A DNA stretch of 64,000 nucleotides from Paracholeplasma manati (GTDB taxonomy: Bacteria; Bacillota_I; Bacilli_A; Acholeplasmatales; UBA5453), in the NCBI RefSeq assembly GCF_025742995.1, contig NZ_JAOVQM010000002.1:124001-188000 (forward strand), in the 5' to 3' direction. The translations under genes and the position numbers were made by a program. Of the stretch, positions 24,930 through 27,549 are shown in pieces (position 1 is the stretch's first letter; the number at the start of each line of letters is the position of its first letter). The notes beneath the pieces were generated by a model. The model searched no databases, had not been told where the DNA came from, and saw nothing but the letters and a program-made list of their open reading frames with translations.

Positions 24930-24960
24930 AAAACCGTACCTTTGTTGAGGTACGGTTTTT
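24930..24960 (+). terminator. Terminator of gdhA
   Basis: AAAACCGTACC pairs with GGTACGGTTTT around an 8-base loop, ending in T. Confidence 0.85.
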
Positions 24961-25072: not shown

Positions 25073-25097
25073 TGTTCTAATGAAAGGAGCGATTTCG

Positions 25098-26609
25098 ATG
25101 TATAAAACCATTTTGTTTGATATGGATGGCACATTGATTGAATCTAATGACCTCGTTTTAGATATCTATCAAAGCCTAGTCAAACTTCACCCACCCAAAG
25201 TCAGTTTAAAAAGTATTCCTGTAGCCGATGTGCTTGCGAAAGGATACCCAGAAGTACTCGAAATGCTCTATGGTAAAAAACGTCCGGATTTGATTGAAGA
25301 GATTTACCGAATTCACAGCGAACTCGCGGTCAATCACTTAAAACTCTATCCGAACACATTGGACATTTTAGAAAGCTTAAAAAGCCGAGGTATCAAGCTT
25401 TACATCATCACCTCAGAACTCAGGAAAATCGCGATAGCGGAACTCACAGGTCTCAGCATTTTCCATTTCTTTGAAGACATCATCGCGTTTGAAGATGTAT
25501 CTAGACCTAAACCAGACCCAGAAGGGATCATCAAATTGATCACCACCAAAAAACTCAATAAAAAAGAAATGATGTTTGTGGGGGATTCGATTTCGGATGC
25601 GAAAGCCGCCAAAGATGCAGGGATATTATCCATCTACATGAATTGGCATAAAGACGCCTCTAAGATGATCTATTTCGACAAGACATTCCATGCTTTTGAT
25701 GAGTTGTGTAGTTTTACCTATGATTATGAACCTGTGTTGACACTCAAGATGAAACCCAATAAACCATTTAAAATCGTTCAGTTCACCGATTTGCATTTGA
25801 TGAATGACATGAAGGATTTGAAAACCAAGGGTTTAATCAAAAAGATGATTGCGGAACATAAACCCGATTTCATCGTCTTTACTGGTGACCAAACGATGTC
25901 AAAAGATAGCCCTAAATTATATAAAGATTTAGGGGCTTATATGGGACAATTCAAAACCCCATGGAGTTTTATCTTTGGTAACCACGATACCGACGAAGGT
26001 GTTGCGTACGAAGCACTCATTGAACAAATCAACGATGCGAATTACTTATCCTATAAACCGGGTAATCCAAAGTATGGGTATTCCAACTATTTCATTGAAG
26101 TTAAAGACAAAAAACTGACCAAAGGTTTGTTATTTATGATGGATTCCCATGTCGATGCGTTTTACATCATCGATCAAAAACCAACCTGGGGGTATGGTTC
26201 ACTTAAAGATGAACAACTCCTTTGGATGGACAGTGTGGTCAATCAATACCATTTGCCTTTTGAAAAAGTACCGAGTTCACTCTTGTTTTGTCATATTCCA
26301 CCTTATGAATTTAAATCGGTCACGCCAGAACAAAAGCAGGACTACATTGGGTCTTATCATGAAACCCCATGTACCCCACCGATTCCAAACCATATGATGG
26401 AAATTCTCAGTAAAAAGAACAGTTGTAAAGGCATCTTTGTTGGACATGACCACTACAATGATTATGCCTTCTACCACAACCAAGTATTGTTGGCATATGG
26501 CCGTGTCAGCGGTTATTATGACTATGGTCCAAAAGGATTTAAAAAGGGCTGTCGTGTCATTGAATTGAATCACGATGGTGAAATCAATACATACGTCAGC
26601 ATTCTATAA
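25098..26609 (+). CDS. HAD hydrolase fused to a Dcr2-like metallophosphoesterase
   Basis: 503-residue fusion of two phosphohydrolases. Residues 1 to about 210 are a HAD phosphatase: FDMDGT (7-12) with nucleophile Asp8 and Asp10, a Thr/Ser in IITSE, and VGDSISDAKAAKDAG with the metal Asp residues. Residues about 225-503 are a calcineurin-like phosphoesterase: FTDLHLMND, VFTGDQTM, FGNHDTDEG, CHIPPYEF and GHDHYND supply a full two-metal site, and the spacing resembles the Dcr2/purple-acid type. ATG at 25098 behind AAAGGAG gives the HAD start MYKTILFDMDGT. Both active sites look intact. Substrate unknown; a two-step dephosphorylation is possible. Confidence 0.88.
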   Translation: MYKTILFDMDGTLIESNDLVLDIYQSLVKLHPPKVSLKSIPVADVLAKGYPEVLEMLYGKKRPDLIEEIYRIHSELAVNHLKLYPNTLDILESLKSRGIKLYIITSELRKIAIAELTGLSIFHFFEDIIAFEDVSRPKPDPEGIIKLITTKKLNKKEMMFVGDSISDAKAAKDAGILSIYMNWHKDASKMIYFDKTFHAFDELCSFTYDYEPVLTLKMKPNKPFKIVQFTDLHLMNDMKDLKTKGLIKKMIAEHKPDFIVFTGDQTMSKDSPKLYKDLGAYMGQFKTPWSFIFGNHDTDEGVAYEALIEQINDANYLSYKPGNPKYGYSNYFIEVKDKKLTKGLLFMMDSHVDAFYIIDQKPTWGYGSLKDEQLLWMDSVVNQYHLPFEKVPSSLLFCHIPPYEFKSVTPEQKQDYIGSYHETPCTPPIPNHMMEILSKKNSCKGIFVGHDHYNDYAFYHNQVLLAYGRVSGYYDYGPKGFKKGCRVIELNHDGEINTYVSIL

Positions 26610-26613
26610 AAAG

Positions 26614-26654
26614 AAGAAGCCCGTTCAGTGTTTTTCACTGAGTTGGCTTCTTTT
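26614..26654. terminator. Bidirectional terminator
   Basis: AAGAAGCC...GGCTTCTT with an inner TTCAGTG/CACTGA stem; serves the convergent genes on either side. Confidence 0.75.
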
Positions 26655-26655
26655 G

Positions 26656-27549
26656 TTATTCTTCTTCATCTCTAACAATTTCGATGACAATTGGTATATC
26701 CATTTCGGAAGAATAGACCTCTAACGCATTTTTAAATGTGACAAATTCATAAGGTTCAAGTGGTATAACAATCGGGTAACTGAAATCTAAGATTTCGTTA
26801 TATAGTTCTAACACATAATGACCATCATCATAATAAAGATACTCTACAACGAGCCTTTTTCCAATACGATAAAACAAAATACCCGTTTCATTGTTTTGAT
26901 CGTCTTCTAAGTAACTGAATTGGATGCTGTAATCCGGTAGGGTATTTAGGATATTTTTAAACTGCTTACGATTATTCACTAAACCTACATGAATACGAGA
27001 AATACCAGGTACAGGGGGTATATATATCGTTTCTAGTGACGCTTCAACTTCATAGGGATTCAATAATCTTTTAAATGTCAATGATGAATCTTTAATAAAA
27101 ATAGAAACGATGACAAAAATAATACAAATAATACCAAATATTCCCGTTAAGGTAGAGCCCATGTACAAGTTACTTTGATGATCGTTGATGTAGTCTTCCA
27201 AAGTCAAAATCTCAACGTCGTTATGATAGACATAAACAGCTTTCTTATCATATTCATCGGAGTCAGCATCGATATATCCAATCACTAATAGTTCGTTTTT
27301 TTCTAGTGAGCCCAGATATGTTTTATTAGGATGAACAAATGAGGGGATATAGAGCGGCTTATCCTGTTCAAAAACAAGGATGTAAGTATCACCACTTTCG
27401 TATTCATCATTATAAAAAGTAAACGTTTCTTCTTGAATTCCTGTAACATTAAAGTTTTGAGCATCTAAGTACAACTTTCCTGATCCACAGAATAGTGCTA
27501 TTCCAATAGCAGAAGCTGCAACAATTATAAGTATTTTTCTAAAATACAT
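26656..27549 (-). CDS. Membrane protein of unknown function, two transmembrane helices
   Basis: Not recognised. 297 residues: an N-terminal hydrophobic helix (about 5-24), an extracytoplasmic-type domain of about 100 residues rich in acidic and aromatic residues, a second helix (about 133-153), then a cytoplasmic-type domain of about 140 residues that is mostly alternating beta-like segments and ends DEEE. The layout resembles membrane sensors or scaffold proteins with a soluble domain on each side. Ribosome site GAGGTAAA. Single gene, divergent from the GDPD gene. It is richer in A+T than its neighbours. Confidence 0.75.
   Translation of the reverse strand: MYFRKILIIVAASAIGIALFCGSGKLYLDAQNFNVTGIQEETFTFYNDEYESGDTYILVFEQDKPLYIPSFVHPNKTYLGSLEKNELLVIGYIDADSDEYDKKAVYVYHNDVEILTLEDYINDHQSNLYMGSTLTGIFGIICIIFVIVSIFIKDSSLTFKRLLNPYEVEASLETIYIPPVPGISRIHVGLVNNRKQFKNILNTLPDYSIQFSYLEDDQNNETGILFYRIGKRLVVEYLYYDDGHYVLELYNEILDFSYPIVIPLEPYEFVTFKNALEVYSSEMDIPIVIEIVRDEEE

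Follow-up and report, generated by a model that had tools for sequence, protein, structure and literature searches.

In the window, by which we mean the whole 64,000-nucleotide stretch of Paracholeplasma manati DNA analyzed here, from a source genome of 1.87 Mb in 28 contigs, positions 25098 to 26609 of the forward strand carry one intact open frame of 503 codons, which starts with an ATG at 25098, ends with a TAA at 26607 to 26609, and translates into 503 amino acids. A preliminary description of this locus had read it as a HAD phosphatase fused to a metallophosphoesterase (MPP) in a single chain, which is borne out by the open frame and by the matches of its product to both Pfam HAD_2 and Pfam Metallophos, and the motifs singled out there (FDMDGT, GDSISDA, FTDLHL, GNHDTDE, and GHDHYND) are all present in the translation. 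The features of the locus are the following.

24930..24960, + strand: hairpin with T-run after gdhA, seen by eye and not reported by the consensus terminator scan
25084..25089, + strand: probable ribosome binding site, AAGGAG, upstream of the start codon, by eye
25098..26609, + strand: HAD-MPP fusion gene, 503 aa (open frame and translation; 16 genomes with the fusion among 160 searched in the order)
25098..25730, + strand: N-terminal HAD phosphatase domain, residues 1 to 211, with a C1-type (helical) cap (Pfam HAD_2, model alignment, and motifs)
25749..26606, + strand: C-terminal calcineurin-like MPP domain, residues 218 to 503 as searched (Pfam Metallophos and motifs)
26623..26643, + strand: terminator-like hairpin after the fusion gene, from the consensus scan, weak by count

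The two domains are joined with almost no linker, and no signal peptide was discerned by eye. The fusion gene is probably transcribed alone, since a hairpin with a T-run follows gdhA and a further hairpin lies 3' of the fusion gene; the former suggests that read-through from gdhA is unlikely. The consensus scan reported two terminator-like sites, versus a mean of 1.5 in shuffled sequences.

The HAD and MPP halves

The N-terminal half matches Pfam HAD_2 over residues 5 to 179 (E 3.7e-36) and has the features of HAD subfamily IA, namely, a DxDGT motif I, a Ser/Thr in motif II, a Lys in motif III, and an acidic motif IV, with the helical cap sitting between motifs I and II. Its catalytic residues are D8, D10, T105/S106, K138, D163, and D167, to which we assign the roles presumed from general knowledge of HAD enzymes. 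Scores lie above the cut-offs of two NCBIfam HAD-IA models, TIGR01509 (37.4 versus 29.4 bits) and TIGR01549 (35.5 versus 23.3). Among the NCBIfam models, PpaX and Gph score highest for the fusion protein, yet both stay below the equivalog cut-offs (96.2 versus 218 bits for PpaX and 84.6 versus 225 bits for Gph, NF009695), and no equivalog was found among the best 25 of the 42 NCBIfam families matched. A structure model built on 13 sequences has a mean pLDDT of 64.4 and is good for the HAD half only, where blocks of residues 1 to 180 reach 73 to 89, while a model built on 3 sequences gave 40.7. In the former, residues 2 to 209 align to the phosphoglycolate phosphatase 2yy6 (Z 25.5, rmsd 2.0, 204 residues aligned), though several further HADs score within 1 Z of this match and so tie with it. 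The Foldseek and VIA matches listed are HADs, in a comparison that barely covers the residues after 211.

The C-terminal half matches Pfam Metallophos (PF00149) over residues 224 to 453 (E 1.8e-13), with 51.8 bits against a gathering score of 21.5 and a complete two-metal motif set. The metal-site residues are D231, H233, D264, N295, H296, H399, H450, and H452, whose roles we presume from general knowledge together with the motif given in PMC8366450. In NCBIfam, this half falls below the equivalog cut-offs of LpxG (35 versus 350), CpdA (30.1 versus 225), and YaeI (20.8 versus 188). It is modeled with low confidence, and its best matches among solved structures extend over only 47 to 80 residues (E 0.001 to 0.03), none of them called Dcr2 or CPPED1. 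By eye, and over the motif stretch alone, IFGNHDTDEG of the fusion protein resembles VWGNHDDEG of the H338 region of yeast Dcr2, the latter as it appears in a mutagenic primer in the cited part of PMC5533888. For a predicted MPP of this kind, this motif likeness gives the label "Dcr2-like" only indirect support.

Six of the genomes with the fusion also encode standalone MPPs (L112 to L117), in which the motif reads GNHE, and the fused MPPs have GNHD in all 16 cases. Judging by eye, the relatives of the MPP half at L121, L122, and L124 have N-terminal membrane segments or are lipoproteins, so members of the MPP family may also serve outside the cell. A standalone relative is also found on the Enterococcus faecium plasmid NZ_CP065529.1 (L128), where it adjoins genes for a sugar ABC transporter, a sugar phosphate isomerase/epimerase, and an aldo/keto reductase on the opposite strand.

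Distribution, conservation, and ancestry of the fusion

Searching 160 genomes of the order with a profile of four fusions, we found the fusion, matched over both halves and in one open frame, in 16 of them. These span two families and three genera, with four in the source genus (seven genomes searched) and, in another family, two in genus g7 and ten in genus g9; the copy of G428 is cut by a contig end at about residue 5. A second assembly of the species (G004; Acholeplasmataceae bacterium UBA6235) has a copy 99% identical, Paracholeplasma vituli (G008) has one 80% identical, and the same reading frame occurs in 13 further genomes, identities ranging from 45% to 99% where measured. The preliminary description had named one finding that would undo it, two separate genes merged by a sequencing or assembly error; copies in 16 genomes rule out such an error.

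Outside the order, no fusion was seen in draws of 395 genomes of the class (MPP half as the query) and 392 genomes of the phylum (searched with the full profile down to E 1e-40); the fusions retrieved in these draws were those of G000, G008, and G303, all of this order. In the class draw, the MPP half matched 58 of the 395 genomes at E 1e-10, mostly in frames of about 200 to 400 residues. The long non-fusion frames of that draw (>600 residues) numbered six, of which five were inspected, a second look at G206 giving the L124 protein; G062 (437 residues) was left out. No HAD motif occurs in the translations of the long frames at L121, L122, and L124, the frame at L024 (G168) shares its DNA with a glycosidase gene read in a different frame, and the 868-residue frame of G368 (L123) was matched by the full-length profile in the MPP half alone. 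An exact-word scan of contigs returned only the two nearest relatives at full length plus nine HAD-only loci, a scan that missed the g9 fusions and says little about fusions beyond the phylum.

Spread by phages or plasmids was considered and set aside, as no full-length record appeared in any of the phage, plasmid, or IMG/VR scans. By tblastn against 50,697 phage and 72,556 plasmid records, none covered 80% of the protein; 5 phage and 15 plasmid records gave any match, and all 5 of the former and the best 8 of the latter match one half only. Narrow pattern scans of IMG/VR gave no relative for the fusion profile and one MPP-only locus.

Both active sites are well conserved. The MPP metal-site motifs are intact in 16 of 16 fusions, as are HAD motifs I, II, and III, and motif IV is kept in 15; in G007, the first motif IV Asp is replaced by Asn (GNSQID in place of GDSISD; L053, the same as the L007 region). 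The distance from HAD motif I to motif IV is 153 to 154 residues, and that from motif IV to the first MPP motif is 68 to 69 residues, in every copy. The linker of the source protein is 17% identical to that of G007 and 87% identical to that of G008. The HAD and MPP halves differ little in dN (0.134 and 0.135 against G008, 0.434 and 0.399 against G007), and in both halves non-synonymous differences are far fewer than synonymous ones, the synonymous sites being saturated or nearly so in both comparisons. The safest statement is that the gene encodes a cytosolic bifunctional phosphatase, perhaps acting on sugar and glycerol-type compounds, and that both active sites are under selection. It is very unlikely, in our opinion, that either half now serves only in regulation or structure, the likeliest form of which would be the HAD as a sensor or scaffold for the MPP: the substitution in G007 speaks for such a role, but the full set of HAD catalytic motifs in 15 of 16 copies and the near-equal dN of the halves speak against it.

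In the MPP tree of 57 tips, made up of the 16 fused and 41 distinct standalone proteins (49 standalone loci before duplicates were removed), a single branch has all 16 fused MPPs on the same side (FastTree 0.91; SH-aLRT 86 by a quick method); the quick method gave a warning over four long rows and over odd composition in L026 and L027. The HAD tree holds the 16 fused and 17 of 19 standalone HADs (L004 and L105 were left out). In it, the fused HADs lie apart from 16 of the 17 standalone ones and form, with the remaining one (G412, at L097:6774-7418 on the minus strand), a single group among 33 tips (support 99/98), with a warning that L003, a long row, might be attached to the fused group in error. 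In the best tree, the G412 HAD branches within the fused group (branch 91/62), and of 200 bootstrap trees 0% have the HAD fusions by themselves on one side; holding this HAD outside the fusions costs 3.04 log units with a p-AU of 0.087, so that this alternative is not rejected. Its two upstream neighbors match those near the G415 fusion at 75% and 78% identity, and both genes lie near cupin-like and antiporter-like genes. That the G412 HAD is a fusion minus its MPP half is favored but not proven; it might instead be a pre-fusion ancestor, the less favored of the two readings.

The trees fit a single fusion event within the order. In the full-length gene tree (midpoint root), G402 of g7 groups with the source genus (bootstrap 91), G303 of g7 lies among the g9 copies (99), and the ten g9 copies are split between both deep halves (98 and 97), a pattern that fits putative transfer of the whole gene between genera within the order, or else an old duplication followed by loss. 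Across the order, HADs and MPPs of these families often occur as standalone proteins, and 8 of the 16 fusion genomes have a separate MPP match of the same kind, two of them partial. Together with the lone HAD of G412, this agrees with a chain of two independent phosphatases joined for co-expression or stability only, which would act on unrelated substrates; we regard this as unlikely, as the near-constant spacing and the retention in three genera suggest that being joined brings an advantage.

Genomic neighborhood and predicted function

In the four genomes of the source genus, the gene order is gdhA, fusion, and a gene for a glycerophosphodiester phosphodiesterase (GDPD), followed in three of them by a GDSL hydrolase gene; the fourth contig ends at the GDPD gene. 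The source genome and G004 have an extra gene between fusion and GDPD, and in G004 (L083:5397-7023) two inserted genes, one HipA-like by eye, separate gdhA from the fusion. The gene between fusion and GDPD in the source genome, at 26656-27549 on the minus strand, encodes a 297-residue protein with no Pfam or NCBIfam match, a relative of which is present in the sister strain (L083) and not at that place in P. vituli (L084). In G417, G418, and G419 of g9, the fusion is preceded by GDPD (Pfam on one) and by a large protein that looks, by eye, like a secreted lipoprotein-type product. Elsewhere, a GH1-family gene adjoins the fusion downstream in four genomes (Pfam on one), one locus has GH65 and LacI nearby, and another KDPG aldolase and PfkB; an asparagine synthetase (AsnA) gene lies directly before the fusion in G402, an APH-type kinase gene near it in G303 and G413, and a cupin-like gene (by eye) near it in G415. 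A conserved operon as a general rule was rejected, since neighbors differ between lineages and none is universal.

GDPD lies within 5 kb of the fusion in 7 of 16 genomes, with contigs of about 5 kb or shorter in G415, G425, and G428. The expectation, by simple arithmetic from 56 GDPD rows in 26.6 Mb, some of which are pieces of one gene, is about 0.46 rows within 6 kb on each side. The proximity perhaps reflects only two independent placements. In the source genus it may be a chance of position, as in G005 (same genus, 99% complete, without the fusion) gdhA and GDPD stand side by side, about 200 bases apart, which makes this genome a clean empty site for the fusion. The glycerophosphodiester link is a lead, not proof.

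We lean, at a little better than an even chance, toward a cytosolic bifunctional phosphatase in which each site acts on its own phosphate ester, so that two related reactions run in fixed proportion. The HAD domain is of the Asp-nucleophile type and the MPP domain of the two-metal type; each would hydrolyze its own ester, and the likeliest substrates would be small phosphorylated sugars, polyols, and glycerol-type compounds. A glycerol or sugar theme is drawn from the GH1, GH65 and LacI, KDPG aldolase and PfkB, and GDPD neighbors; AsnA, the APH-type kinase, and the cupin-like neighbors do not fit it. The fixed spacing would imply a defined packing of the two sites against each other, which the structure model is too poor to show, and such packing would hold the two related reactions in one complex at a fixed proportion. 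The two sites might also act on successive forms of one substrate.

The preliminary description had gone further and proposed two distinct phosphate-cleaving chemistries, by which a phosphodiester and then a monoester would be removed from one substrate. Two distinct and complete sites, with selection on both halves, agree with the first part of this proposal; its division into diester and monoester does not follow, and the successive removal is unsupported, the sequence being silent on chemistry and the HAD of G412 standing alone. According to the cited part of PMC8366450, human CPPED1 is a protein phosphatase, yet its authors place it by sequence in the class III phosphodiesterases, and the chemistry of the MPP half can accordingly not be read from the same motifs. 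A sequential enzyme, whose MPP cleaves a phosphodiester and whose HAD removes the resulting monoester from the same molecule, seems to us rather unlikely. It would account for a fusion with fixed spacing and for GDPD genes nearby in 7 of 16 genomes, and it has a precedent in MtlD, described in the cited part of PMC6291793 as a HAD fused to the enzyme of a neighboring step. However, a nearby GDPD would already provide the diesterase, both Dcr2 and CPPED1 are described, in the parts of the sources cited, as phosphatases, and G412 has the fused kind of HAD without an MPP, although its pre-fusion branching is not rejected (p-AU 0.087). Since that HAD occurs alone, the HAD half may not depend on the MPP half. 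A more elaborate version, an order-specific cascade enzyme in which MPP and HAD would act in succession on one metabolite, with the spacing serving transfer and the gene portable between genera, we also hold to be rather improbable. More generally, the fusion of two enzymes hints at a connection between their reactions, and this one offers a handle both on the little-studied bacterial Dcr2-like phosphoesterases and on the handling of phosphate esters in wall-less bacteria with small genomes.

Comparison with known systems

A PpaX-like HAD is also present on the C-terminal side of an Lgt-like protein at L125, L126, and L127 (G276, G487, and G207), the partner being, by eye, what we take to be prolipoprotein diacylglyceryl transferase (Lgt). 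Ten HAD rows in the genomes of the order have open frames of 500 to 580 residues, which suggests that more Lgt-like/HAD fusions occur in the order. A full-text search (titles and abstract openings, with subscription journals poorly covered) returned no HAD-metallophosphoesterase fusion. Each of the two domains is familiar in itself, and a HAD joined to a partner enzyme has a known example in MtlD, as the cited part of PMC6291793 describes.

The HAD half is like the subfamily IA phosphatases Gph and PpaX in its fold and catalytic motifs, including the tied match to 2yy6 (Z 25.5), and unlike them in scoring far under their equivalog cut-offs, in its own tree group, and in the second enzyme at its C terminus. 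With the Dcr2/CPPED1-type MPPs the MPP half shares all residues of the class III motif D-GD-GNH[E/D]-H-GHxH, as given in the cited part of PMC8366450, whereas the fusion protein is bacterial and its MPP is joined to a HAD. Yeast Dcr2 is itself a phosphatase and a negative regulator of Ire1 in the cited part of PMC5533888, where Dcr2 had no effect on stress survival. MtlD, which is among the matches of the fusion protein (including the Foldseek/VIA comparison), likewise has a HAD phosphatase domain on its N-terminal side fused to a second enzyme; in the cited part of PMC6291793, however, that partner is a dehydrogenase and not a second phosphoesterase as in the fusion protein.
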